A program made the translations under genes and the position numbers. Shown here piece by piece: positions 4,703 through 26,538 of a stretch of 64,000 bases of DNA. The notes below the pieces were generated by a model. The model worked only from the letters and a program-made list of their open reading frames with translations, had not been told where the DNA came from and did not search any database. Position 1 is the stretch's first letter. Every line of letters starts with the position of its first letter. Source of the DNA: Tricholoma matsutake (lineage: Eukaryota; Basidiomycota; Agaricomycetes; Agaricales; Tricholomataceae); contig AP026538.1 in assembly GCA_026075535.2 (NCBI GenBank), forward strand, positions 15,260,337-15,324,336, read 5' to 3'.

Positions 4703-7700
4703 ATGATGCTGCCAAAATACTCTGAGAAACCTGCCACTAATAGGCCCAGCAAAGAATACTTCTGTGACTGCTCTAGGTTTTGCAAAGGTCAACAAAACAA
4801 AGTCTCTTGTTCCACACACCTTAGACATGCTCCATCTCACAATGCTGACCTCGAGAAGAGATTGGCACGGTTTAAAAGGAGCAACAATTCTGCTGCCATC
4901 CAAATGACCAGGACATCATGGGAGGGAGATTCCAGACCATCCAATGGAGCAAGCCTGCCCCAAGAAAGCTTATTGAACACAGCAAATGCTGCAACACCAG
5001 CGATGGTATGTCATATTCAATGTTAACCCTGCCAGTGGTTTGCTAAACAACTCTAGTCAATTCCCAAGGCTCTGGACACAGACTTTGACTGTGGAGCAGT
5101 TGTTGGAATGCCAGTGGAAATGATGGGTGCAGAGACCCAGCCAACAGATGCAGATGCATGAACGGTATGTTGCTAGCATGAATTAACTACTAGATTTTTA
5201 TGAATTATGTCACGGTGGACAAGGATCATGCTCAAGCCACCCCTATGCCTACCCCGGAAATGGACGAAGACCATATAACAAATGTCCATCATAACCAGTG
5301 TGGCAGACATGACTCGGGAACAGGGCTCAATACCACTGATGAAATGCAGGGAATTCTCGGTGATTCCAGATGTCTGGACTCAGATCATCTTCATCGCTTG
5401 TGGAATCCACCAACATCATGTGCTGATGTTACTGATCCTGATTTCCATCTGGGGTTGGACTTATGCCTTGCAAGCATTAATTCTTCTCAGGACACATCCA
5501 CAGCTTCCCGAGATGCTATACTATGGTATCACCCTGATGATGAGATACCATCATATGATCAGATGAAATGACAGATTGCCAAAATCACTGGTGTTGTACC
5601 TATAGTGGATGACGTGTGCAAAAATAGCTGTATAGCATACACTGGTCCTCTGGCAAAGCTTGATGAGTGCCCAGAGTGTGATGCTCCACGTCTTGATCCT
5701 TTGACAAAAAAGGCTGAACAGCACCTTTTTATGATCCCTCCTGGACCACAGTTGCAAGCACAGTGGCAAGATGTTGAAGGTGCAAATCAGATGAGATATC
5801 GGAGGACAAAAATGAGTGAGATCATTGCCAAACTACAGTGGACTGGTGGAGTGCTGTCTGCTTTTTCCGACTTCTTACACTCCAGTGCATATCTTGAAGA
5901 GGTCAGAAGTGGTTGTATCAAGGACACTGACATGGTTCTGATGCTCTCCATGGATGGGGCCCAACTCTACAAGCACAAAACATCAGATTGTTGGATCTAT
6001 ATTTGGATCATATTTGACCTTGCCCCTGACTTACACTACAAGAAGAGATATGTCCTTCTGGGTGGTTTTATTCCAGGCAAACCAAAATTTGTTGAATCGT
6101 TCCTTTTTCCAGGATTACATCAGCTTGCTTCTTTGCAGTGTGAGGGCCTTTGGATTTGGGATGCATCACAGAATGAGGTCTTCATGTCAAAACCATTTTT
6201 TGCCTTGAGAACTGCGGATGGTCCTGGCATGGCATCTCTGAATGGACTTGTTGGGCATCTTGGTAAACATGGATGCCATTTATATTGCTCGATTCCTGGA
6301 TGACACAAGCCTAATGGGCCACATTATTATCCAGCCCTTCTTAAGCCCAACAACTACACAGTCAATGGGTGTGACCATGGCGACATATCATCTACAAACC
6401 TTCCATCTTGCTCCCAGGCAAATTATATCACAAACCTTTGCCATCTCATGTCTTCTCCAAATGAAACAAACTATAAGAAACAATGGCTTGCAACAGGGAT
6501 ATCAAAGCCAAGTATCTTCCTTGGTCTACAACATGACAAGATGCTGGGTATTCCAAGTTGTTTTGGTTCTGACATCATGCACCTTGGTTCACTAAATTTG
6601 CCTGACCTTCTGATTAACTTATGGCATGGCACTTTTGATTGTGATACAAGGGATAAATGCTTGACCTGGGACTGGGCCAAGCTCCAAGGCAGTAGATGGG
6701 TAGAGCATAGGCATCAAGTTGCTGCGGCTACTCCATATCTGCCTGGTTCCTTCGATCAGCCACCATGCAATCCAGCTGAAAAGATATCAAGTGGTTATAA
6801 GGCCTGGGAATTTCTTCTGTATCTATTTGGATTGGGACCAGGGCTACTATACAGCATCCTACTGGAGAAGTACTATCAGAATTTTTGCAAACTTGTCTTT
6901 GGGATGCATATTATCCAACAATACCATATCATTAATGAGGACCTTTCAAAAGCTCATGCAGCCTTACTAGAATTTGCATATGAATTTGAGCTGCTATATT
7001 ATCAGCGTCAAATGGATTGCCTTCAATTTGTGAGGCAAAGTGTCCATGCATTGACACACCTTGCACCCAAGGTTATTTGCATTGGACCACCTGCCTGTTC
7101 ATCACAATGGACCATGGAATGCACCATTGGGAACTTGGGCCAAGAGATGCACCAGCCATCAAACATGTACACCGATCTCTCTCAGAGGGGTCTTCTACAA
7201 TCTCAGATCAATGCTCTCAAAGCAATGGTACCAGATCTTGAACCATCACCACCTGTTGTGCCTCGAGGGGGGAAGGATATCAGCGATGGATACATTCTTT
7301 TGCAAGCAAAGGACAGCTGTCTTCGGCCTATCACAGATATCGAGAAACAGGCATTTTCAATTTACTTGAAAGACACTCATGCATTGGAATTTGCTGAAGA
7401 CTGGTCCCCAGGGGTTGCTAAATGGGCAAGGCTACATCTCCCTAATGGTCAAGTAGCATGGTCTTCCTGGAAGGAAAAGCTGAAACCCCTGGAGAAAGTA
7501 AGAATGGCACAATATATCAAGGTGTGTACTGTTTCAGATCACTCTTTGGATCTTTCATCCAACCTCACATGAAATTATTTTAGTTTCAATGTTCTGCCAA
7601 TGGAGGAATCCATTTTGCCAAAGTCCATTATTATTTTTGATCCCTCATCAAGGATATTGAAAAAACCCTAGCAATGGTTTCACTCTACTCACATCCTCAC

Positions 7701-7931
7701 AAAGAACTTTATGAGTACTCATTTCAGACATTATTGTCTTGTACATATGTGGGTGACAAGCATAGTAATCTCTGGGTAATCGATGTTAAGTTGATCAAGA
7801 GTGTGGTTGCAATGGTTCCTCACCATCCATTTCCTGGGGAAACTCTTGAGCGGTATTTTGTAGTTGAGAAACCTGGACTTGATGTAGCTTGTGTTGGGGG
7901 AGTTGTAGAAGTTGTCATAGATGAGGAATAG
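4703..7931 (+). pseudogene. Tnp2-family transposase, copy 1, broken
   Basis: This is a relic of the large Tnp2-type transposase of basidiomycete CACTA-like elements, which would cut and paste its own element. The N-terminal Cys-rich block KEYFCDCSRFCKG lies near 4757-4795. A probable intron starts at 5006 (GTATGT). The frame then runs from 5200 through CPECDAPRLDP (about 5668-5700), a likely first catalytic Asp in SMDGAQLY (about 5950) and WTMECTIGNLGQE (about 7108). A 62-bp intron at 7522-7583 (GTGTGT...TTTTAG) joins to the conserved C-terminal block ending in RYFVVEKPGLDVA. In-frame TGA stops lie at 5569, 6301 and 7638. The 6301 stop falls where relatives read GRHKP, so a CGA to TGA change is likely. 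About 50% of the protein can be lined up with copy 2 at 14990-17103. Confidence 0.85.
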
Positions 7932-7933
7932 AA

Positions 7934-7963
7934 TTCAATATTCAATATTCAATATTCAATAAT
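7934..7963. repeat. ATTCAAT microsatellite
   Basis: Four tandem units of the 7-mer ATTCAAT / AATATTC follow directly after the Tnp2 stop codon. It is a simple repeat with no assigned role. Confidence 0.8.
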
Positions 7964-8245
7964 GAGTCAAATAACTCGGAACTGTATACAGTTGTATTAT
8001 GAGTTGCTTACATACACATCATACACATGCACACCTTTCCTCCACATTGCCTTTTCATAATTCTCATAATACTAGTGTCACCCTCTCAAACAACCATCGA
8101 TATTGTTTCACAATTCACTGATTCATCAAGATTCACTCACTTTACGTTTTCTTTTTGCATATTTGTACTTGAGTGTATGTAAAGGTGATGAATGACATCT
8201 TCTCTCTCTTCACCTTCCTTGACAATTCTTGTTTTAGCATTCTCC

Positions 8246-8253
8246 ATCAAGTT
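8246..8253. repeat. 8-bp target duplication ATCAAGTT, left of E1
   Basis: ATCAAGTT abuts the TAGTGCTTGAA end of E1. Its partner is not on the other side of E1. It is the reverse complement AACTTGAT at 17812-17819 beside E2, so the pair has been separated by rearrangement. Confidence 0.85.
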
Positions 8254-8544
8254 TAGTGCTTGAAGGTCCAGTCCTAAGGACTGGAAAAAGACTGGGACCA
8301 GACCAAACCAGAACCGATAGAACCGGACTTTTGGTCCCAGTCCTGCTGGTTATGGGGTCAGTTCAGTCCACAGTCCACTGATCTCATGGCGAGCAGCAGG
8401 ACCGCTCGAGACTGGTTAGGACCAGTCTTGAACTGAACTTTGGCATATACATACTACTACTCTGAGTACTATTAGGAGTGCTGGGGGGGAACTCCCCACT
8501 GTCCCTTCTCCTCGCCGTCTCCCTAGTTATAGTCATCTTTCCAC

Positions 8545-9135
8545 TCGTGATCCACCCCACGAGCAGTGGCTTGTGAGGCTAGAAGTGGGTGATGGGTCCT
8601 TCATCATCATTCCCCTTCCCCACCCCCTCATTGTTCACCCATCCTGCCACCCCTCATCATTCCCCCTCCCCGCCATTTCCCTCCCCAGTCGTTGTCATCC
8701 TTCCACCTGCGATCCACCCCATGAGCAGTGGCTTGTGAGGCTGGGAGTGGGTGGTGGGTCCTTCATTGTCATCCCTTCCCCACTGTCCCTCATCATTCCT
8801 CTTCCCCACTGTCCCTCATTGTTCCCCTTCCCCGCTGTCCCTTGTCGTGCCCCCCTTCCTGCTATCTCCCTCCCCTGTCGTAGTCATCCGTCCACCCACG
8901 ACCCACCCATGAGCAGTGGGTTGTGAGGCTGGGAGTGGAGTGGTGGGTCCTTCATTGTTGTTCTAGTACCTCCTGCCCACTCTGCGAGCAGTGGCAGTTG
9001 GTGGTTGGTTGGGGCCAGTTTGTGTTGGCAGCATTGGGCATCCCTACTGTCCACATTGCTCCCCTTCATCATCCTCATATACTAGCACCTGCAGTCCACC
9101 CTACAAGCAGCTGCTTGTAGGGCTGGAGGCAGATG
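8545..9135. repeat. CGAGCA palindrome cluster with C-rich minisatellite (E1)
   Basis: Palindromes of the form CACGAGCARYTGCTCGTG, more or less decayed, occur near 8557, 8715, 8905, 8980 and 9097. They are separated by degenerate CCCCTTCCCC-type units such as GTCCCTCATCATTCC. Several frames stay open across them only because the repeats lack stops. I do not call a gene here. Confidence 0.8.
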
Positions 9136-9281
9136 CGAAGTTGTTGGTGTGTTGTGGGTGCAGTGGTGCCTAGTTGAGGGGGTTAGTGGCACGTCGGTGA
9201 TGTGGTGTGGGTAGAGGAGGCTTACCGGATGGGGTAGGTGCTGTTTGGGGGTCGTGAACCTTGTAATTGCACTGCTAGAAC

Positions 9282-9372
9282 CTAAAGAACAATGTAAAAT
9301 GTCAGTTAGTCTTGAAAAAAAAGGAAGCAGGCTTACCTGGGGGCCCAAATGACATCCAGCATTGTTTGGGCC
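9282..9372 (-). other. Hairpin-intron cassette, E1 copy
   Basis: Read on the minus strand, a 31-base inverted repeat (GGCCCAAA...TTTGGGCC, 9342-9372) is followed within six bases by a consensus intron at 9336-9282: GTAAGC donor, CTAAC-type branch and TTTAG acceptor, 55 nt. The sequence after the acceptor starts GTTCTA as in the other copies. This suggests a transcribed and spliced unit, not proven. Confidence 0.75.
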
Positions 9373-9938
9373 TAGTTTTGGTATCCTATTGAGATAATCT
9401 AGATAAAAAGATAATTAAGCCATTGAAAAGAACAAAAAATGACTTACTTTAACAAAAACAAGCACTACATAGGTTGAATGCAAGGTGGGGAGGCTATGAG
9501 CTGGCACTAACAAGTGTACGCATGTCGATCAATGTGTCGATCACTCAGTCTGGAAGTTGCTGGACAATGTTGGATGCACAGATGTCACTTTGCTGTGTGT
9601 TGAGGACCCTTAAATTGAATCTAGTAAGCAAGAGAATTAGTAGCAGGACACTTGACAACTGTCTGATAAGTTTAAGGCTATATCTTGTGCTTCGAACATC
9701 CAAATTGAAAAAGAAATGCACTTCTAAAATCATCCAAATACATAGAATGAATTTATGGATAAAGATTATATTTATATGTTTTACCCTTTGTGAGCTTAGT
9801 ACATGTCAGAAATCAATTTGGAGGGTTGGGAATGAGCCATAGGATGTCTTTCAATGTTCTGAGATAAGTAGTTGAGTGTTTAATGTGATGTGGAAGTGGT
9901 TGTGGCCAGAAATCTAGTTGAAGTGCATGAATTGACCA
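9373..9938. other. E1 interior without recognised gene
   Basis: Open frames at 9474-9842 (plus) and 9545-9733 (minus) lack known motifs. The plus frame is preserved in E2 (19728-20096, minus) almost residue for residue, with one substitution. That reflects the recent common origin of E1 and E2 and is not evidence of function. Confidence 0.6.
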
Positions 9939-9940
9939 TA

Positions 9941-10870
9941 CTATATCACCCAATTGGTCTGAAATCTCCCAGGGAGTCTGAAATTCAATTTCTACATTTT
10001 ATCTGCTTGTGCAATCCCCCCGGAGTTTTACGGGATCTAATTGACCAGTAGTAATGGATGTATGTATGATTTCACTAAGGAATACAAGCTGTGGAAGCAG
10101 TCAAGAAACAGTAGCTGGAGTGATCAAACAGTGATACAAATGAAAATGTCTTGTTCACCATGGCAAAAACCACTCCCAAAGCCCGAAAAAATTTGACAGG
10201 ACACCTACACTATACCAGACTATGGTAGTATGCTCTCTGCAAATCTCTGGGGGTGTTGTGCCCATGTTCGAGAGCAATGAAGGGACACTGTCAATTTTGT
10301 CACACTTTGTCATGGTAAAATTGAATGTCCACTGGCCGGCTCAACGGCAAGTGGCTCGAGATGCTTGAGGCACAAGAAATCACAAGCAAATGTAAAGCAC
10401 GTGCACTACATACTGTTTCTGGGTGGACCTTGAATTTCGATGAGTTTTGTCACGCTGTCTCTCCTCGCTCTTGAACATGGGCTCACCACCCTGGAGACTT
10501 GAAGAGAGTGTGTTACCGTAGTTTGGTCTAGTGTACAAAAAGCTTGCCTATCTTTGTTCCATATTATGATATCTTTTATGAATTCAATGAAGATTTAAAA
10601 AAAAATGTGTCCTGTAAAATTACTTCGGGCTTTGGGAGTGATTTTTGCTATGGTGAACAAGACATTTTCATTTGTATCACTGTTTGATCACTCCGGCTAC
10701 TGTTTCTCGACTGCTTCCACAACTTGTATTCCTTAGTGAAATCATACATACATCCATTACTACTAGTCAATTAGATCCCGTAAAACTCCGGGGGGATTGC
10801 ACAAGCAGATAGAATGTAGAAATTGAATTTCAGACTCCCTGGGAGATTTCAGACCAATTGGGCGATATAG
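9941..10870. mobile_element. G: foldback/MITE-like element with long inverted arms
   Basis: The sequence starts CTATATCACCCAATTGG and ends with its complement. Inverted arms of about 260 bp (9941-10205 and about 10600-10870) are nearly identical. TA is duplicated at 9939-9940 and 10871-10872. E2 has the empty site with a single TA (19630-19631). The TA duplication points to Tc1/mariner-type mobilisation. There is no coding capacity. Confidence 0.9.
10208..10533. mobile_element. G2: small TA-flanked MITE nested in G
   Basis: Imperfect terminal inverted repeats of about 20 bp (CACTATACCAGACTATGGTA and the relative CACTAGACCAAACTACGGTA) face each other. TA lies at 10206-10207 and 10534-10535. 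The unit sits in the loop of G, so it inserted after G formed. The 326-bp length and TA flanks suggest a mariner-like MITE. Confidence 0.75.
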
Positions 10871-11196
10871 TATGATCTAGTAAAGTTTGACTCGATTGTT
10901 TTGTTTACAACAATCATTTGGCAATTGTATATTGAATACTCTACATAAAAATAAAAACAAAGTTGCTATATATTGCAGTATTGATACTATACATGCCCCA
11001 CCTGTATTTTGTGCATTGGGGGCAGTGAAGGGAGCTTCAGAGATGTCAAAATCGACGAGCTCACTGTGTCAATCATTGTCTGGCAATTGCCGGATACATT
11101 TGATCGACGTGCGTACACTTGTCTTACTGCCACCTCACACTTTCCACCACCTCTCATGCCTCCCATCCAGCCTCTATCACCTTTATCTTGTTTCTA

Positions 11197-11322
11197 GTAA
11201 GTCTTTCACTCTCATTTCTTACAGTTTTCTTTCTTCTTTTGCAGGTTGTATGGCCAAGGTAAGTATTTTCTTATGTTCTTTTCATCTTTTCAACTAACTA
11301 GTGTTTTCTTTGATTTGTAGGT
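11197..11322 (+). other. Two consecutive intron-like segments in E1
   Basis: A GTAAGT...TTTTGCAG segment (11197-11244) is followed, after 14 bases ending GGCCAAG, by a second GTAAGT...CTAAC...TTGTAG segment (11259-11322). The base after it starts the GTTCTTTATGC sequence, like the acceptor side of the cassette in J (47862). The GGCC hairpin is reduced here, so this may be a decayed second cassette on the opposite strand of E1. Confidence 0.55.
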
Positions 11323-11364
11323 TCTTTATGCTACGACGACCTGGCCAGATGACCCCTGCACTGC

Positions 11365-11985
11365 CGCTGCAAGCCTCTGCTTGCAGGGTGGATAACAGGA
11401 CAAGGCGGATCCCAATGACCAGATGCCAGATGACAATGGGCAGCTACAAAACAGATGGAGATGATGCATGTCCCCTGCATCCAGCCTCACAAACCACTGC
11501 TCGTGGGGTGGGTGCTACTTTTCCAACAATGCAAGGTATGTGCGCCTTGTCACCCTGACATTGCCATGTCACTAACAACGACCCCAGTCAGCACCCATGT
11601 CCAGCCTCATGAGCCACAGTTTGTGAGGTGGATCGTGGGTGCAAACTGCCCAATAACGATGGGACGACGAAAAAGACGATGACAAACGGGGGCAGGCAAG
11701 CCAATGAGGGACGGACGACAAACAAGTGACAAACAGTGAATGAACAAGGGACAGCGAGGGAGGCACAGCAAACAATGAAGACGAATGGTGGGTGGGGATG
11801 ATGGTGACAGTGACGGCTGCAACGGGGACAACAACAATGGTCACAATGGGGACAACAACCACAACAGCAGGAGCAGCAGCCCCCTCCCTCACTCAAAGTG
11901 CGAGACGGAGGGGGCCATTATCTTTCTTTTTGTACTAACGAGCCATCCCACATCCAGCCTTGCGAGCCGCTACTCACAGGGTGGA
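11365..11985. repeat. CGAGCA palindrome cluster, right part of E1
   Basis: Degenerate palindrome copies lie near 11370, 11485, 11605 and 11965. They are joined by AAC/ACG-rich spacer sequence that is open in several frames. No protein family is recognisable. Confidence 0.7.
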
Positions 11986-12059
11986 TTTCTTTTCTTTTAA
12001 TTTTAATTTCATTGTTGTACTCGAATTTACTACATATAAGTACAGTAGTAGTATCTAGT

Positions 12060-12246
12060 CTGCAGAGATCGGTCCAGTTAAGGACTGGTCAGAACTGGTT
12101 TGCGAACCATTCAGGACTGGTCTAACTGGTCCCTGGTGGTTTGGTCCATGGTTCCATAGATAATGTGAATATACAAGACCGGTTTGGTTCCTGGTTTGAC
12201 CCCAGGAGGGTGAAAAACCAGGACCAGACCAGACTTTCAAGCACTA
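12060..12246. repeat. Subterminal ACTGGTC repeats and right terminus of E1
   Basis: At least eight copies or complements of ACTGGTC/GGACCAG lie in under 200 bases next to the terminal TAGTGCTTGAA. The matching set is found at the left end of E2 (17820-18000). Confidence 0.8.
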
Positions 12247-12254
12247 GAGGGAAT
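12247..12254. repeat. 8-bp target duplication (ATTCCCTC on minus), right of E1
   Basis: On the minus strand this reads ATTCCCTC and ends the FunK1 codons for D-S-L. The partner copy ATTCCCTC lies at 21289-21296, outside E2, where the same kinase frame continues I-G-R-A-T-K-V. Confidence 0.9.
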
Positions 12255-12439
12255 CCAAATTGTAGATCAACTTCACAACTGAGAATATCATGTTAGCCAA
12301 TGTGATCCATTCCACTCTCCCAGTAGTAGAGTTGATCTTCACATTTGGATCAAGTCCAAGGTCAGAATCATCTCTAAACATGAGGAAGGCAATGACTTTG
12401 AAGAACAGCTTGACATGCAACCTTCTGCCATGCTGCAAA
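12247..12439 (-). pseudogene. FunK1-type protein kinase a, second fragment of the 5' half
   Basis: The minus-strand frame reads HGRRLHVKLFFKV, LMFRDDSDLGLDPNV and KLIYNLDSL, the stretch that precedes the kinase core in FunK1 proteins. Upstream it is cut by element F and downstream by E1. Removing F with one copy of its 8-bp duplication fuses FPLW to HGRRLH in frame. Removing E and joining to 21289 continues the frame in the same way. There are no internal stops in this piece. Confidence 0.85.
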
Positions 12440-12644
12440 TAGGGCACGGCATGGGTAACCCTCGGGTATATTTCCTCATACCCTTACCCATACCCGTGAA
12501 CACCATACCTGCACAGGTAGGGGTACGGTGTTACTGTGGGTTTCTGCAGGTTACCCGTGGTTATTTGCGGGTTTCAGCATGAATATGTATCTAAATAATC
12601 TAATTACCCTAAATTAATTACACTAACTAATATATTAAAAGAGA

Positions 12645-12830
12645 AACCCCCCTCCTCACATTTTCAGTGAGGGGTGGTGGTGGTGGTGGTGGTGGTTGTT
12701 GCCCAGAATGAGATGAGAAACCCCCCCTCTTGCATTTGAAGTGAGGGAGGGGGGGTGGTGCCTGTAGTCGCTGAGAACAGAATGAGTAACCCCCCCGCTT
12801 GCATTTGCAGCGAGAGAGGGGGGGGTGCTG
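12645..12830. repeat. Three tandem C-run/G-run hairpins in F
   Basis: Three units about 70 bp apart have the form CCCCCCnCTTGCATTTGnAGnGAGnGGGG, each able to fold with a TTGCATTTG-like loop. Related C-run/G-run hairpins sit near 30240 (E3), 39065 and 57640 (I) and 48540 (J). Confidence 0.75.
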
Positions 12831-13062
12831 CCTGTAGTCATCATTTGATCCCTGTTTCCACCCCACGAGCAGTTGCTCGTGGCAGCAGTTGGGGGTGCTA
12901 TCGTGGTGGTGGTCCTCCTCCTGGTCATCATTGTCATTCCACCTGCTATCCACCCCACGAGCAGTTGCTCGTGAGGCTGGGGCGGGTGGTGTGCCATCGT
13001 GACGTGACAGCATTGGCATGGGGTTGTTCCATGTGAGCTCCTCGCTCCAAGGGAATTCCAAC

Positions 13063-13163
13063 CTAGGAAATGAAAGAAACAAAATAGTTAGTTTACAAAA
13101 AAAGAAATGAACAAAAAAAAAACTTACCATGGGCCTGAATGACGCAATCACATTGTTTGGGCC
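13063..13163 (-). other. Hairpin-intron cassette, F copy 1
   Basis: On the minus strand the imperfect hairpin (13131-13163, GGCCCAAAC...CAGGCCC) is followed by a 65-nt intron at 13127-13063: GTAAGT donor, CTAAC branch and TTCCTAG acceptor. Removing it would keep a frame open into the CGAGCA palindromes (reading ...SLTSNCSWGG then stop). Confidence 0.7.
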
Positions 13164-13232
13164 TGGGTGATGTGGCACCGTTGGGTGTGTGTCATTAGCT
13201 GTCATTATCCGTCGTTATCAGTAGTTTAGAAC

Positions 13233-13333
13233 CTGAAAAAGAAGAAACATAATCAGTTAGTTTACAAAAAACAAGAAATGAAACACAAAAAAACTTATTA
13301 TAGGCCCAAATGACGATTCCCATCATTTGGGCC
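13233..13333 (-). other. Hairpin-intron cassette, F copy 2 (donor decayed)
   Basis: The hairpin GGCCCAAATGA...TCATTTGGGCC (13303-13333) is well kept. The donor reads ATAAGT where the other copies have GTAAGT, a single G to A change. The CTAAC branch and TTTCAG acceptor at 13233 are retained. Confidence 0.65.
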
Positions 13334-13552
13334 ATGCTATGGTGGTGGTTGGATTGTCCTATAGTTTAGAATTAGATGTGTCGTGAGTAATCAACAAGGT
13401 CAGATGATCACTCACCTGACCAAAATCTGGGTACCGGCATACCTGCACATACCCATAACACCGTGGAAAAGAGTACAGTGTTGCCTGGGTATGGCAATCC
13501 CATACCTGTGACCAGAAACACATGGTGTTACCCATACCTGTTCTGTGCCCTA

Positions 13553-14450
13553 GCCACAAAGGGAAATTGCAAAGGCAAACTTGGCCATCATGATCTATAA
13601 GAGTAAGGGAGAGAGTATGGTCGCCTGTGAAGGCAAGAGCAATAATATAGCATCGATTGGCTTGGCACCCAAATATAATGTATGATTTGGTACTGGTTGT
13701 ATCAGTTATACGATTGTTGGATCTGGATATGGGTGTTGTGGTTGATTCGTAAATTGCATGGATGAAACACCAATCAGAGTGGGCTTTCTCTGTATTGAGA
13801 AGTTGATTATAAGCTTTGTCAACGAGGATGAGGTCTGGCTTCCTGACGACGGTGCTACCGACTGGTGCTCTGTTACAATCGCAGTACAACCAGATGCGAC
13901 AGCTGGTATGTTTTGTTGCAAATTCCATAGCAGAAGTAATACCGTTCAACCACCCAGCAACCGCCTCCTTGGTATAATCCCTCATGCTCTGAAGTTCTTG
14001 TCTTCCAGCATCCCAAATGGGCTTCTGCTGAACACCTTTGGCAGTCATAAATGGCTGTCCCATCTTTGTGAAGAAGGCATCATCAAGTTCAAATGGAAGG
14101 CACTCATCAGGAAAGAGGATATTGATGAGAAGGATGGTTGTGGTAATGACATGGTCAGCATCGAGCTCTTTTTGGATAGCTTCATTGAGCTTCAGACCTG
14201 GGAAGGCTTCTCCAGGGAGCAAAGACATGTATAGATGAGAGACAATCAAAGGTGCAGGCTGTGGAGCGGTGTAGAGAGGATGGCCTTTGGGCATTGGTCG
14301 GGGTGCACATGGAAGTTGGTGGGTAGAAGTTTGTTCGGGAATAGCAGTGGCAAGATATTGATCTATGGCATCATTGACACCATAATGATGAGGACCAGTA
14401 GAGTCCTGTGAGTTACTATATGCATGAAGTTGAGGTAATGGTGAAGGCAT
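13553..14450 (-). pseudogene. FunK1-type protein kinase a, N-terminal fragment
   Basis: The start at 14450 was chosen because MPSPLPQLHAYSNSQDST lines up with the start of paralogue b. The frame holds FunK1 N-terminal features: SHLYMSLLPGEAFPG, an FFTKMGQPF...PIWDAGRQ block, TVVRKPDLILVD, the HSDWCFIHAIYE block and the CQANRCYIIALAFTGDH strand. It ends at FPLW, where F is inserted. These kinases are expanded in mushroom-forming fungi and their targets are mostly unknown. This piece has no stop codons, so the kinase may have died by insertion rather than by point mutation. Confidence 0.85.
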
Positions 14451-14574
14451 AGTGGAAGATTGGCTACAAGGGAATCTATGCAAGATGCTGAAGCAGGAGT
14501 TGTGAAGGAATGTGGAAGGGGAAAAAATGGCATCCATGGCTTATGTAAAATATGCCAAGTCAAATACAAACATG

Positions 14575-15065
14575 CAAAGGAAGCGAGAGAGAGATTGATA
14601 AACCAGGAAGCAATGTATGGACGGGTCTTTGCTTATATGAAAAGAAAAACATGCACTAATATCACATGATAAGCAACCCAATACAGTAGTTTGAAATTTC
14701 GAGTTCTATTATTCCTCTAGAGCAACTTCTACAACTTCCCTGAGGCAAGCTATATCAAGACCAGATTTCTCAACTACAAAATATTGCCCAAGAGTGTTTC
14801 TCAACTACAAAATATTACCCAAGAGTGTCTAATGCAAGCAGGCATCTGAAGCGAGAGAGATTAATAAATCATGAAATGATATCCATGTTGAACATTGATG
14901 GACCTTACCACTTAACATGTAATATATTTATCACTAAGCTACCCAATACAGTATTTTTAAATTTCAAGTTGTTCTATGATTCCTCTAGAGCAACTTCTAC
15001 AACTCCCCTGAGGCAAGCTATATCAAGACCAGGTTACTCAACCACACAATATCGCTCAAGAGTGT
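14575..15065. repeat. Tandem duplication of the 3' end of Tnp2 copy 2
   Basis: A unit of about 250 bp (AGAGAGATTRATAAA ... CTAGAGCAACTTCTACAACT ... GCAAGCTATATCAAGACCAG) occurs at about 14580-14830 and again at 14855-15065. A 32-bp unit (TTTCTCAACTACAAAATATT...) is itself duplicated at 14765-14828. The right copy is the true C-terminus of the transposase frame. Confidence 0.7.
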
Positions 15066-17103
15066 CCCCAGGAAATGGATGGTGAGGAACCATCGCAACC
15101 ACACTCTTGATTGACTTAGCATCAATTACCTGAAGATTATTATGCATGTCACCTGCATACGTGCAGGATAACAATGTGTGGAATGAGAACTCATGAAGTT
15201 CTGTATGAGGATGTGAGTATAGTGAAACCATAGCTAGTGTTTTCTCAGTATCCTTGATGAGTGATCAAAAATAGTAGTGTACTTCAGCAAAACAAATTCC
15301 TCCTCCACAGGCAAACTAAAAATTCATGTGAGGTTGATCAATGATCAGAAAAACTTGAATTTGAAGCAGTACACACCTTAATATTTTGTGCCATTCTTAC
15401 TTTCTGCAGTGGTTCCAGCTTTTCCTTCCAGGAAGACTGTGCTATCTGACCATTGGGGAGATGTAGCCTTGCCCATTTGGCAATTCCTGGTGACCAGTCC
15501 TCAACAGCAACTTCCAGTGCACGAGTGTCTTTCAAATAATTTGAGAATGCCTGTTTCTCAATATCTGGTATAGTCTGGAAACAATTGTCCTTTGCTCACA
15601 GAAGAATGTATCCATCATGAATGTCCTTTCCCCCTCAAGGCACAACAGGTGGTGATGGTTCAAGATCTGGTATCATTGCTTTGAGTGTGTTGATCTGAGA
15701 TCATAAAAGTCCCCTCTGAGAGAGATTGGCATGCATATTTTATGGTTGGTGCATCTCTTCACCCAAGTTTCCAATAGTGCATTCCATGGTCCATTGTGCT
15801 GAATAGGCAGGTGGTCCAATCCGAATAACCTCAGGTGTCAATGCATGGATACTTTGCCTCACAAAGTGAAGACGATCCATTTGATGCTGATAATATAGCA
15901 GCTCAAATTCACAGGTGAAATTTGGCAAGGCTGCATGAGCTTTCAAAAGGTCCTCCTTGCTGATATCATTTTGTTGGATAATGTGCATCCCAAAGACAAG
16001 TTTGCAGAAATTCCAATAGTACTTCTCTGGTAGAACATTGTATAGTAATGCTGGTCCCAGTCCAAATAGATACAGAAGGAATTCCCAAGCCTTATACCCA
16101 CTGGATATCTTTTCAGCTGGATTGCATGGTGGTCAATCAAAAGAGCCAGGCAAATATGGTGTAGCAGCAGCAACTTGCCACCCATGCTCTTCCCATGTAC
16201 TGCCTTGGAGCACAGCCCAGTCCCAGGTAGAGCAGTCATCAGTTTTATCACAATTGAAAGTACCATGCCATAAGTTGATCAGAAGGTCAGGCAAATTTAG
16301 TGAAGCAAGGTGCATGATGTCAGAACCAAAACATCCTGGAATACCGAGCATGTTGTCATGTTGCAATCCAAGGAAAATACTTGGCTTTGATATCCCAGTT
16401 TCAAGCCACCATTTCTTATATTGTGTTTCATTTGGAGAAAAATGATGTAATCCTGGAACAAGAAATGAATTGACAAATTTTGGCTATCCTGGAATAAAAC
16501 CACCAGGAAGGACATATCTCTTCTTGTAGCATAAGTCAGGAGCAAGGTCCAATATGATCGATCCAACAATCTGATGTTTTGTGCTCATAAAGCTGGGCAC
16601 CATCCATGGAGAGCATCAGAACCATGTCAGTGTCCTTGATACAACCAACTTTGACTGCTTCAAGATATCCACTGGAATGTAAGAAGTTTGAAAATCCAGA
16701 GAGCACTCCACCAGTCTGCTGTAGTTCAGTGATGATCTCTTGTGTTTTTGTCCTCATCTGATTTGCACCTTCATCATCTCACCACTGCACTTGCAATTGA
16801 GGTCCAGGAGGGATTGTATAAAGGTGCAGTTCAGCCTTCTTTGTCAGAGGATCAAGACGTGGGGAACCACACTCTGGGCACTCATCAAGCTTTGCCAAAG
16901 GACCTGTGTATGCTATACAGCTATTTTTGCATATATCATCCACTATAGGCATGACACCAGTGATTTCAGCAATACGACATTTTATCTGATCATATGATGG
17001 TATCTCATCATCAGGGTGACACCAAAGAATAGCATCTCAAGATGAGGTGTAGGTGTCCTGAGAAGACTTGATGCTTGTGAGGAATAAGTTCAGCCCCAGA
17101 CGG
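14990..17103 (-). pseudogene. Tnp2-family transposase, copy 2, truncated and broken
   Basis: On the minus strand it starts inside the protein at DFRLGLNLFL and continues through DEIPSYDQIKCR, CPECGSPRLDP, SMDGAQLYEHK, WTMECTIGNLGEEMHQP and VVAMVPHHPFPGDTLERY, matching copy 1 (4703-7931) block by block. A segment corresponding to about 6000-6450 of copy 1 is largely missing. Several frameshifts and stops are present, including a TGA at 15265-15267 at the same residue as the 7638 stop of copy 1. Its 5' end fuses directly to FunK1-b at about 17103 with no CACTA terminus visible. Confidence 0.8.
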
Positions 17104-17799
17104 AAATCAGAAGCACCAATCAGAATGGATTGCCAGCTCATTCTAAAGATGAGTTAGATAGGCTTTGTCAATGAGGATAAGATCAGGTTTCCTAATGATG
17201 GAGCTCCCAACCAGTGTGGTGTTGCAGTTACGGTATGACCAGACCTGACTGCTGGTGGTCGAGGTTGCCTGTTCCATGGCGAGAGTAACATGATTTAACC
17301 AATCAGCCCCCACAACCTCTAAATAATCCTTCATAAGGCGAAGCCACATTCTTTCAGCATCCCAGATTGGTCTCTGCTTGATGTCTTGGACTGAAAAAGA
17401 TTGTCCCATTTTTTTGAAGAAGGTGTCATCAAGTGGGAAGGGAAGTCAATCATCAGGAAAGAAGATATCAAGGAACATGGATGATGTGGTGATAGTATGT
17501 CCAGTAAGGTCTTTTTGAAGAGCTGCATTGAGCATTGGACTGGGGAAAGCTTCCCCAGGTAAAAGCAATGAATATAGATGAGAAACGATGGTGGGTACTG
17601 AAGAAGCCAAGGCAGCAGCAGGATGTAGGGCACATTTGCCTTTTGGCAGGACTGCCTGTGCATCTTTGAGAGTGTAATCTCGACCATGAAGAGCAGTGGC
17701 AAGGTATGAGTCAATGGCTGCATTGGGGCTGTGAGGTGCATGGGAGGGATCTTGAGAGTCAACCTGATAATTATGGAGTTTCGGTAACTGTGAAGTCAT
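17104..17799 (-). pseudogene. FunK1-type protein kinase b, N-terminal fragment
   Basis: The start codon at 17799 gives MTSQLPKLHNYQVDSQD, parallel to kinase a. FFKKMGQSF, IKQRPIWDAERMW, SIIRKPDLILIDKAY and HSDWCF follow. TGA (17446) stands where paralogue a has Cys, and TAG (17143) interrupts later. The frame ends at the residue after which paralogue a continues IHAIYE, because Tnp2 copy 2 begins there. The start codon lies 20 bp from E2, so E landed in the 5' leader or core promoter. Confidence 0.8.
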
Positions 17800-17811
17800 A
17801 GAGGGACAGGA

Positions 17812-17819
17812 AACTTGAT
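17812..17819. repeat. 8-bp target duplication (ATCAAGTT on minus), left of E2
   Basis: AACTTGAT is the exact reverse complement of the 8 bp left of E1 (8246-8253). Together with the other exchanged pair it marks the inversion. Confidence 0.9.
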
Positions 17820-18244
17820 TAGTGCTTAAAAGTCTGGTCCAGTCCCGGTTTTTTGCCCTCCTGGGGTCGAACCAGGAACCGAACCAGTCTTGTATATTCA
17901 CATTATCTACGGAACCGTGGACCAAACCACCAGGGACCAGTTAGACCAGTTCGCAAACCAGTTCTGACTGGTTGGGACCAATCTCTGCAGACTAGATACT
18001 ACTACTGTACTTATATGTAGTAAATTCAAGTACAACAATGAAATTAAAATTAAAAGAAAAGAAATCCACCCTGCGAGCAGTGGCTCGTGAGGCTGGATGT
18101 GGGATGGCTCATTAGTACAAAAAGAAATATAATGGCCCCCTCCATCTCATGCTTCGAGCAAGGGATGGGGCTGCTGCTGCTGCTGCTGCTGTTGTTGTCC
18201 CTATTGCTGCTGTTGTGGTTGTTGTCCCCATTGTGGCCGTTGAT

Positions 18245-19250
18245 AGGTTGTCTCCTTGGCTCAAAGGCCAATTCACCATTTCAACCACATTCTAATCACA
18301 TCGGATAACTCGCACAAGGTCCCAGAAGCAGCACAACCACTCCTGACCAAGTCTACTGAGTGTGATTTCGTATCGACTGCATTGAAACATCACCAGCGAC
18401 GTCGATCGTACTTAGAAACCACATTGCACAACTTTAGGACTACCTCGAAAGCCCCTAAGATCCTTCTAACTGACCATTGAACATCCCCGATCAACGTCGA
18501 ACAAACTGCGACCGCGATCAAACATCGTCGACCATTGTCGAGCATTATTGATCGATATCGAGAGACTACGAGTGACATCGGGCACCGCATTTGTTATCTA
18601 AATGGTGGAATACCATGCACCTGGAAGTATTCCAACTCGTGCTCAAACCTGCTGATAGTAGGTCAGCCTCGTTCCAAGTCCCTATCGCATACAGAACCCA
18701 CTGGATGAATTATTGCGAGACTTAGCATGGTTTATACACAAAGGACAGTCCCTTTTTAGTTCTACACCCTTTATTACTCTTTCATCATATGATATATATC
18801 TTTCTTGTTTGGATTCCAGTCTCCTTTTTTGCCTTGTGCCTTAACTCATATCTTTTGCCTCATGTTCTACACATGTTTCTCATTCCATTTTAGGAAGTTT
18901 CTTTAAAACATATAAAACTCTGTAGTATCTACTTGGAAATACAAGAAATTGTCTTCACCTATCATCTCGTATACAGATCTAAGCATCCGATCAATCTTCT
19001 AAAAACAATCTAAGTCTCTACATGGTTTCTCAATCAATGAGAAACCTCTGTGATCATCGTGTCCTCGATCTTCCTTCAATCCTCTTGTCGTTAGCACTAG
19101 CAACCATTCCAACACATCCTAGCCATTGGCTATAGCCTTTGTATACTATCGACCTATCGAAAGGTCCTTGGAATTCACACTTTGACCATCGACAAAAACA
19201 TCATTCGCCGTCGATCTCGTCGATCATCCTCAATATTGATCGATACTCGC
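18245..19250. repeat. E2-specific interior segment, related to 24980-25700
   Basis: This kilobase is absent from E1. It is rich in TCGA and TCGAT motifs. Its part at 18731-18950 (GGACAGTCC..., TTTGCCTCATGTTCT, AGGAAGTTTCTTTA) resembles 25495-25690 in order and spacing. No coding frame is recognised. It may be a piece of another repeat captured by E2 or lost from E1. Confidence 0.55.
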
Positions 19251-20197
19251 ATACAACCTGCAAAAGAAGAAAGAAAACTGTAAGAAATGAGAGTGAAAGA
19301 CTTACTAGAAACAAGATAAAGGTGATAGAGGCTGGATGGGAGGCATGAGAGGTGGTGGAAAGTGTAAGGTGGCAGTAAGACAAGTGTACGCACGTCGATC
19401 AAACATATCCGGCAATTGCCAGACAATGATTGACACAGTGAGCTCGTCGATTTTGACATCTCTGAAGCTCCCTTCACTGCCCCCAATGCACAAAATACAG
19501 GTGGGGCATGTATAGTATCAATACTGCAATATATAGCAACTTTGTTTTTATTTTTATGTAGAGTATTCAATATACAATTGCCAAATGATTGTTGTAAACA
19601 AAACAATCGAGTCAAACTTTACTAGATCATATGGTCAATTCATGCACTTCAACTAGATTTCTGGCCACAACCACTTCCACATCACATTAAACACTCAACT
19701 GCTTATCTCAGAACATTGAAAGACATCCTATGGCTCATTCCCAACCCTCCAAATTGATTTCTGACATGTACTAAGCTCACAAAGGGTAAAACATATAAAT
19801 ATAATCTTTATCCATAAATTCATTCTATGTATTTGGATGATTTTAGAAGTGCATTTCTTTTTCAATTTGGATGTTCGAAGCACAAGATATAGCCTTAAAC
19901 TTATCAGACAGTTGTCAAGTGTCCTGCTACTAATTCTCTTGCTTACTAGATTCAATTTAAGGGTCCTCAACACACAGCAAAGCGACATCTGTGCATCCAA
20001 CATTGTCCAGCAACTTCCAGACTGAGTGATCGACACATTGATCGACACACGTACACTTGTTAGTGCCAGCTCATAGCCTCCCCACCTTGCATTCAACCTA
20101 TGTAGTGCTTGTTTTTGTTAAAGTAAGTCATTTTTTGTTCTTTTCAATGGCTTAATTATCTTTTTATCTAGATTATCTCAATAGGATACCAAAACTA

Positions 20198-20288
20198 GGC
20201 CCAAACAATGCTGGATGTCATTTGGGCCCCCAGGTAAGCCTGCTTCCTTTTTTTTCAAGACTAACTGACATTTTACATTGTTCTTTAG
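20198..20288 (+). other. Hairpin-intron cassette, E2 copy
   Basis: The GGCCCAAA...TTTGGGCC hairpin (20198-20228) ends five bases before the GTAAGC donor. The intron is 20234-20288 (55 nt), with branch CTAAC and acceptor TTTAG, followed by GTTCTA. It is identical in layout to the E1 copy. Confidence 0.75.
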
Positions 20289-20439
20289 GTTCTAGCAGTG
20301 CAATTACAAGGTTCATGACCCCCAAACAGCACCTACCCCATCCGGTAAGCCTCCTCTACCCACACCACATCACCGATGTGCCACTAACCCCCTCAACTAG
20401 GCACCACTGCACCCACAACACACCAACAACTTCGCATCT

Positions 20440-21010
20440 GCCTCCAGCCCTACAAGCAGCTGCTTGTAGGGTGGACTGCAGGTGCTAGTATATGAGGATG
20501 ATGAAGGGGAGCAATGTGGACAGTAGGGACGCCCAATGCTGCCAACACAAACTGGCCCCAACCAACCACCAACTGCCACTGCTCGCAGAGTGGGCAGGAG
20601 GTACTAGAACAACAATGAAGGACCCACCACTCCACTCCCAGCCTCACAACCCACTGCTCATGGGTGGGTCGTGGGTGGACAGATGACTACGACAGGGGAG
20701 GGAGATAGCAGGAAGGGGAACAATGAGGGACAGCGGGGAAGAGGAATGATGAGGGACAGCAGGGAAGGGATGACAATGAAGGACCCATCACCCACTCCCA
20801 GCCTCACAAGCCACTGCTCGTGGGGTGGATCACGGGTGGAAGGATGACAACAACTGGGGAGGGAAATGGCGGGGAGGGGGAATGATGAGGGGTGGCAGGA
20901 TGGGTGAACAATGAGGGGGTGGGGAAGGGGAATGATGATGAAGGACCCATCACCCACTTCTAGCCTCACAAGCCACTGCTCGTGGGGTGGATCACAGGTG
21001 GAAAGATGAC
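20440..21010. repeat. CGAGCA palindrome cluster with minisatellite (E2)
   Basis: This is the inverted counterpart of 8545-9135. Palindrome copies lie near 20450, 20585, 20645, 20810 and 20975. The spacer units GGGACAGCGGGGAAG and relatives differ in copy number from E1. Confidence 0.8.
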
Positions 21011-21288
21011 TACGACTAGGGAGACGGCGAGGAGAAGGGACGGTGGGGAGTTCCCCCCCAGCACTCCTAATAGTACTCAGAGTAGTAGTATGTATATGCC
21101 AAAGTTTGGTTCGAGACTGGTCCTAACCAGTCTCGAGCAGTCCTGCTGCTTGCCATGAGATCAGTGGACTGTGGACTGAACTGACCCCATAACCAGCAGG
21201 ACCGGGACCAAAAGTCCGGTTCTATCGGTTCTGGTTTGGTCTGGTCCCGGTCTTTTTCCAGTCCTTAGGACTGGACCTTCAAGCACTA

Positions 21289-21296
21289 ATTCCCTC
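21289..21296. repeat. 8-bp target duplication ATTCCCTC, right of E2
   Basis: It is identical to the minus-strand reading of 12247-12254. It encodes the D-S-L codons at which the FunK1-a frame is split. Confidence 0.9.
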
Positions 21297-22595
21297 ATTG
21301 GTCGCGCAACTAAAGTTTAGGTCATGATAGAGAGTAATAAATCCTACATACTGAAGGATTCCTGGATCCAACTCTGTCATGCACAGTCTGAAGCCAGCAT
21401 CCTGGCGCTGATGCATGGTCATGATGCCATCAAAGGATGTGTACCCTTGTTGCTCTGTAGTGAGGATGTGCAGATTAATGGTTGAAGGGACTGCACAGAG
21501 AATTACTAAAAACATTCACATGGGTGGCCATTTTTGCAGCATGTTCATCATTGCTATGCAACCTTGCCCATTGGTGCACCACTGGCATCTTTCAAAAGCA
21601 AGAAAGAATTTATCACTGTGATGATATCTCTTATTCAAAGTAAGTTGTCTAGTTTGCATGAGTAATGAAGCTCACAGTAACTCTATAGCTCATCAATATC
21701 TTGTTGAAAAACTTGGAATACTGGATTGTGATATAAGCATCAACAACCTTTTGATCAATTGTACTGATGCTATTGTACGTGGGCTTCTGATCGATTTTGA
21801 CTTTGCAATACTCTTGCATTGCTTAGCTGTCAATGCTCCAGTGGCTCAAACTTCCACTAGTACTTTGGGCAATGTTGCCGTGGACACGATGTATGAGGCT
21901 AGTGGGACTAACAGCAATATTGGTGATATTGAGAGGATTGTTGATGTGTCCAACGATGAAGATGACCAAGGGTTCAAGACATCCAACTCTAAGGTCAAGA
22001 ATGTTTGCACTGTAGGTTCCTTCATTTCAAAGTCTATGAACCAGAGAGTTAATTATAGGTAATTATTAATCAGGGCACACCACCATTCATGGCAGTCAAA
22101 ATCCTTGTTAGCAAAGATGAACAATTCACACATCAGCCTCATCACAATCTCGAGTCATTCATTTATGTCATATTCTACATTTGCACTTTCATGGGTGGAC
22201 CTGGAATCTGTCAATCAAAATCTGAAATTCCTGCAGAGGACACCATGCATGCCTGGTTCAACAACAACAGTAAACTCAGTACTATTGGGTGGACTAAAAC
22301 TGGACATATGTGTGGCCCTTATATCACAATTGTGCCCCACTTTTTGGAATATTGGCAGGATTTTGGGCCCTTTGCCCTAAAGTTGTCCCAAGCTTGTTTT
22401 CCTGCCAATGCAACTTCCCACACTGTCAGGCCTAATGGACTCACCTATGAAATGGTTCTTGCAATATTGGAGGAGGCATTGGAGAAGGTTACAGAGCCTA
22501 TTATGATGCCCAAATTATGCACCAAATGGCAGGCTCCCAATGCTGGCAATCATATGTGCTTGAGGGGGGCAAAGCGAACAAAGTGGGAGGGCTAG
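21289..22595 (+). pseudogene. FunK1-type protein kinase a, C-terminal kinase half
   Basis: The frame resumes with LIGRATKV, a TAG where relatives have Trp, and SYILKDSWIQ. It continues with LPIGAPLASFKSKKEF, a probable 38-bp intron (21640-21677, GTAAGT...CACAG), the catalytic loop as ILDCDISINN (about 21715-21747, with D-C-D in place of H-R-D) and the metal-binding LIDFDFA (21787-21807). After a one-base shift near 22060 come GTPPFMAVKIL, HNLESFIYVIFYICTF and the C-terminal tail to TAG 22593. The two halves together give about 780 residues, in the usual range for FunK1 proteins. It lies on the opposite strand from its 5' half because of the E1-E2 inversion. Confidence 0.85.
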
Positions 22596-25720: not shown

Positions 25721-26538
25721 GATCGCAGTGATTTGAGAGTACAGTTTAGTCTTATTCAGTCTGAAGTCTGGTGATTTATGCTAAATGTCTTCAAAAATCT
25801 TCAAAAATCTTTGCATTACACTATTTTTGCTCTTGTTTCCCTTGATTTGCCTTTGCTTTGCTTCTATTACTTGTCTAGTCCCCCGATCTTGTCAGAATCG
25901 CTACGAGCCTCCACCAGAGTTTCCTCTGGCTTCACCCTATTCAGGCATAGTTCACCATCTTTCGGGTCCCAGCATACATGCTCAACCGCGGAACCGTCAC
26001 AAAAGTTCTGGTCCGGGCATTGATGCTCCCCATGACAGGGATCTCAATTTTCACTTTCATTACGCGCTCGGGTTTTCCACCCAAACACTTGCGTGCATGT
26101 TAGACTCCTTGGTCCGTGTTTCAAGACGGGTCGATTAAAGCCATTATGCCAACATCCTAAGCACGTAACGTGGTGTAAACACCCAGCCTTGCGGCGTGCT
26201 GAGTTCCTCAATCCCAACCGATGTATGCGACCAAGAGCTATAAACACATCCGAAGATGCCACCTCCGAACATATTTGTGCACTCCAAATTCGTTGATCTA
26301 GCCATGAAATTCCTTGAAATTCCTTGAAAGTCCTCAAAACACATTCTTTTAGCTTTGAATTGCTTTGACACACAGTCCTTTTATGACTATTTGATGGTTG
26401 ATCTGACAGGTGACATCTAGAGGGCCTCACATCCTTCCTCTGACTTGTGTTATACCATCCGAAGCTATTTTGTAGGTTTTGTTTGGGTTTCTGGGTTGAG
26501 CATCATCACTGAGCAATCTCAGTCTTCCTGCCAGCAAG
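25721..26538. other. No gene recognised
   Basis: Short frames on both strands have no motif. The local CG content is higher than in the older relics, for example at 26000-26260. Confidence 0.5.

Follow-up and report, generated by a model that had tools for sequence, protein, structure and literature searches.

The locus described here raises the question of how two copies of one transposable-element family, E1 and E2, came to lie in opposite orientation at the breakpoints of what appears to be an inversion, each without a matching target duplication of its own. It lies in a 64-kb stretch of the Tricholoma matsutake genome (C1:15260337-15324336; hereafter the window, to which all positions without a contig prefix refer), and the genome searched comprised 161,040,721 bases in 13 contigs. 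The two copies, their flanking 8-mers, and the segment between them are as follows.

8246-8253, plus strand: ATCAAGTT, left of E1, one half of the site 1 target duplication.
8254-12246, plus strand: E1, a hAT-like element copy of 3993 bp with the terminal inverted repeat (TIR) TAGTGCTTGAA...TTCAAGCACTA.
12247-12254, minus strand: GAGGGAAT, right of E1, one half of the site 2 target duplication, now beside E1 and inverted.
12247-17819: the inverted segment, 5573 bp.
17812-17819, minus strand: AACTTGAT, left of E2, the other half of the site 1 duplication, inverted and at present adjoining E2.
17820-21288, minus strand: E2, an inverted copy of the family of E1, 3469 bp.
21289-21296, plus strand: ATTCCCTC, right of E2, the other half of the site 2 target duplication.

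Both elements end in short terminal inverted repeats (14/15 bp matching in E1 and 13/15 bp in E2) that fit the hAT type (consensus TAGTG...). The arms of the two copies align in stretches of 1089 bp (99% identity), 579 bp (97%), and 382 bp (99%), with two further stretches at the inner end of 248 bp (89%) and 131 bp (92%). The two longest reading frames of each element, four in all, gave no Pfam match above the cut-off. Furthermore, a genome search for PF05699 (at least 151 matches; 150 of 449 candidates scored) yielded no autonomous hAT partner, in that none of the matches listed was seen by eye within 5 kb of a listed E-family end. The nearest among them, at C3:12925466, was approximately 5.6 kb from the E-family end at C3:12919452. 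Given that no hAT transposase was found, we term E hAT-like and non-autonomous, and not a proven hAT.

Reverse-complementing the 8-mer to the left of E1 gives exactly the one to the left of E2, and the same holds for the 8-mers to the right of the two elements, both by direct reading and by script; the crosswise, inverted pairing of flanks described in the initial annotation is therefore exact. The own two flanks of each element mismatch at seven of eight positions. From the base composition, the probability of both matches arising by chance is approximately 3e-10. Within the window, GAGGGAAT and ATTCCCTC each occur once, both at E borders, and ATCAAGTT and AACTTGAT occur six and four times, respectively. 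As a family control, we inspected the flanks of other copies. All four of the other full-length, two-ended copies (on C11, C3, C9, and C2, with GTATGAAG, ATAGAAAT, CATAGGTT, and ACCATAAT, respectively) are each flanked by their own perfect 8-bp duplication, a trait of the hAT superfamily, and neither E1 nor E2 is (0/2); the copy on C8, whose right end was not found, was excluded. Shorter two-ended relatives at three loci have flanking 8-mers that match at 8, 7, and 6 of 8 positions. The four full-length copies indicate that E normally duplicates its own target, and that E1 and E2 are exceptions.

Both E copies were then cut out, 12247-17819 was turned back, and the resulting joins were searched against the genome. 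At the turned-back E1 junction (an 800-nt join), all three non-self matches that reached the junction crossed it uninterrupted (C7:4567206, C4:2047102, and C7:3486808, at 92, 88, and 87% identity, respectively), and the remaining non-self matches lay entirely on one side of it. The turned-back E2 junction (a 388-nt join) was crossed by all eight non-self matches, with identities of 95, 92, 92, 91, 91, 90, 73, and 70%. The joins in the present order, for which shorter queries of 173 and 146 nt were used, were crossed by 0/11 and 0/11 matches, which stopped exactly at the junction; longer present-order joins were crossed by none of seven paralogous loci. Uninterrupted target sites for both junctions thus occur in the turned-back order only, and these sites are paralogues, not alleles.

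The arrangement of genes in and around the segment was compared with the two orders as well. The features concerned are listed below.

5572-7572, plus strand: Tnp2-1, a decayed transposase, with PF02992 in 5572-6303 (30.6 bits) and none in 6304-7572.
12247-14540, minus strand: first part of FunK1-a, with a Pfam match of 17.6 bits, below the cut-off, in 13359-14540; interrupted by E3.
12440-13552: E3, another TIR element (TAGGGCACGG / TAGGGCACAG), within FunK1-a and the flipped segment.
14972-17115, minus strand: Tnp2-2, an inverted remnant, 83-88% alike to 5433-7933.
17111-17819, minus strand: FunK1-b, the 5' part of a kinase gene, ending at about 17111 where Tnp2-2 starts.
21289-22595, plus strand: second part of FunK1-a, in which two reading frames match PF17667 (39.9 and 33.5 bits).

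Turning the segment back places Tnp2-1, FunK1-b, Tnp2-2, and FunK1-a on one strand, an order that the initial annotation had given correctly, and the neighbouring Tnp2-FunK1 unit in the window is collinear with this order but not with the one found today. The annotation had also stated that the FunK1 frame resumes at 21289 with no base lost. This holds, as the frame rejoins without a net indel when one 8-bp copy is removed (...VVKLIYNLDSLIGRATKV*VMIESNKSYILKDSWIQL); an internal TAG in the joined frame had gone unmentioned, and at its position TGG stands in the four closest of the paralogues examined. Against PF17667, the joined peptide scored 38.6 bits, with 115 residues on 115 profile positions, and the halves scored 13.4 and 14.9. 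A protein search for an uninterrupted FunK1-a in another strain returned 14 proteins, all distant FunK1 proteins (best identity 42%; 7994 candidates scored), which speak neither for nor against the inversion. E2 alone would suffice to split FunK1-a. Given that FunK1-a is also broken by E3 and that FunK1-b is truncated at about 17111, the inversion would have moved dead-looking genes; as those within the flipped segment are broken, it probably has no biological effect. The 8-mers flanking E3 match at 6/8 positions and are unswapped.

The pairing of Tnp2 with FunK1 recurs in the genome. Of 127 listed FunK1 matches, 98 were used, since additional exon hits close to a retained match were omitted. 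FunK1 lay within 6 kb downstream of 7 of 149 PF02992 places, on the same strand in 7/7, and within 6 kb upstream of 0/149; when places were drawn at random 1000 times, the mean was 0.52 and the highest count 5. The spacing from Tnp2 to FunK1 was 2.46-2.71 kb in six cases and 3.99 kb in one. Such pairs are found in the window (5207-8253 with 17819-17111) and at C1:4026713, C12:2450523, C13:6232769, C2:11985431, C4:8423584, C12:4458760, and C8:9371646. FunK1 may be carried as cargo by a single Tnp2 transposon lineage; among the listed papers on FunK1 and transposition, no title pointed to such cargo. Elsewhere in the window, there are a fragment of eukaryotic large-subunit rRNA (25832-26103, minus strand), which covers positions 675-954 of 3401 and so falls well short of a complete gene, and a remnant of a PIF1-like helicase (399-2403, with PF05970 in 1321-1863), the latter possibly Helitron-derived.

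Comparison of E1 with E2 revealed a mosaic of divergence, for which the following stretches inside the elements matter.

8860-11252, plus strand: homogenised core of E1, with 11 differences from E2 in 1460 aligned bp, the fold-back insertion left out.
9939-10870: fold-back insertion, in E1 only, of approximately 932 bp, with 271-bp arms that are 96% complementary and with TA flanks.
18241-19249: high-copy repeat of approximately 1 kb in E2, replacing 11253-11828 of E1 (approximately 0.58 kb of E).

The two copies differ at 11/1460 positions (0.75%) in the core, 20/578 (3.5%) in the outer 0.6 kb or so, and 41/402 (10.2%) at the inner end. The ratio of inner-end to core divergence is 13.5 (p 5e-19), by far the largest contrast when set beside nine other E-family pairs, whose ratios were 1.02-2.04 (the copy on C2, whose interior aligns poorly, and that on C8, whose right end was not found, were excluded). 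The inner end was also somewhat more divergent in four of the nine control pairs (p 0.017 to 0.0003), so it is somewhat faster family-wide, and part of the contrast is a family trait. The inner ends of E1 and E2 are no closer to each other than to unrelated family copies. When the ancestry of the outer and inner parts was compared in order to map the crossover, other copies were about equally distant. As regards chimerism, E1 and E2 show mosaic divergence and a homogenised core. The interior of E2, which lacks approximately 0.58 kb and carries the 1-kb repeat, complicates the history of this copy. Of 40 candidate genome places scored for the repeat, nearly all match at 86-91%. The repeat is LTR-like in starting with TGTC and ending with TACA; no target duplication was seen around it by eye.

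These comparisons suggest, with a probability that we put at roughly 0.92, that E1 and E2 inserted in opposite orientation and that ectopic crossing-over between them then inverted the 5.6-kb segment, with gene conversion of the core. Two related hAT-like elements would have inserted approximately 5.6 kb apart, at site 1 upstream of FunK1-b, duplicating ATCAAGTT, and at site 2 inside FunK1-a, duplicating ATTCCCTC. Later, the copies would have paired, and homologous crossing-over within the element would have inverted the intervening segment and exchanged the inner halves of the duplications, making E1 chimeric, while a gene-conversion tract would have rendered their two middles nearly identical. 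What is seen directly is the swapping of the duplications, the existence of both target sites solely in the turned-back order, and the mosaic divergence; that there was a single crossover, that it lay within the homogenised core, and that it and the conversion formed one event are inferred. Crossing-over between the E copies had already been put forward in the initial annotation, and the swapped duplications, the paralogous sites, the Tnp2-FunK1 collinearity, and the homogenised core all support it.

It is possible, although we consider it unlikely, that the exchange was not confined to the past, and that E1 and E2 form a live inversion switch in which the pair keeps recombining, the cores are thereby kept alike, and both orientations coexist in matsutake, segregating between the nuclei of the dikaryon. 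For the T. matsutake assembly TMA_r1.1, the published description reports HiFi reads with an N50 of 10-11 kb and a heterozygosity of 1.05% (PMC10211490). The core divergence of 0.75% is near the latter value, but the one assembly examined has a single orientation. Hybrid-element (aberrant) transposition, in which sister-chromatid copies of one E would give one end each and the hybrid would insert at a second site, is reported to yield an inversion with an identical duplication pattern (PMC2775673). Swapped duplications alone are compatible with it, and the word 'proven', used in the initial annotation, was too strong. Such transposition would also agree with the nearly identical cores, but it predicts identity over the full length, whereas 10.2% of inner and 3.5% of outer positions differ; because the inner ends diverge, we regard it as very improbable. 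We give almost no credence to an assembly artefact, namely a segment misoriented between two long inverted repeats, even though such repeats generally favour this error and the material is a dikaryon with the above heterozygosity, whose haplotypes are mixed in the primary assembly (PMC10211490), as the 64-kb window has zero N and the HiFi reads are longer than E1 (4.0 kb) and E2 (3.5 kb), so that single reads can span each copy. Flipping of the segment by a transposase acting on its ends was rejected by reasoning, because both outer ends are left ends and both inner ends are right ends.

Read as an inversion by crossing-over between E1 and E2, the locus would be a clean and complete case of transposon-mediated inversion in a mushroom, with swapped duplications, both target sites, and a conversion tract in one genome, and it would show that decayed repeats still recombine in a repeat-rich fungus. 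The process itself is well known, and the argument from exchanged duplications is already known from Galileo. A literature search for matsutake, hAT, and inversion found no paper, and we make no claim of a fungal first. In maize, hAT (Ac/Ds) elements at p1/p2 reportedly yield inversions by alternative transposition, and those inversions are ascribed to a transposase that works on ends belonging to two elements rather than to homologous recombination.

Within the Agaricales, protoclones of Marasmius oreades carry short non-autonomous hAT families, and deletions were ascribed to recombination between copies (PMC9674265). One inversion there, like that in matsutake, occurred at a pair of copies, in that case of MarorhAT-10, but there one copy was turned round and the middle was lost, in a protoclone derived in the laboratory, and swapped duplications are not described in the parts of that account cited here (PMC9674265). 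Galileo generated inversion 2z3 of Drosophila buzzatii, for which opposite copies at the breakpoints, exchanged target duplications, and a single-copy target in uninverted sequence are likewise reported (PMC2775673). Galileo belongs to the P superfamily and makes 7-bp duplications, whereas E is hAT-like, makes 8-bp duplications, and bounds an inversion of 5.6 kb. Furthermore, 2z3 is a chromosomal inversion that is naturally polymorphic and was seen as alleles, whereas the empty sites in matsutake are paralogous; and Galileo chimerism was shown against two other copies (PMC2775673), whereas E1 and E2 show an apparent conversion tract instead.
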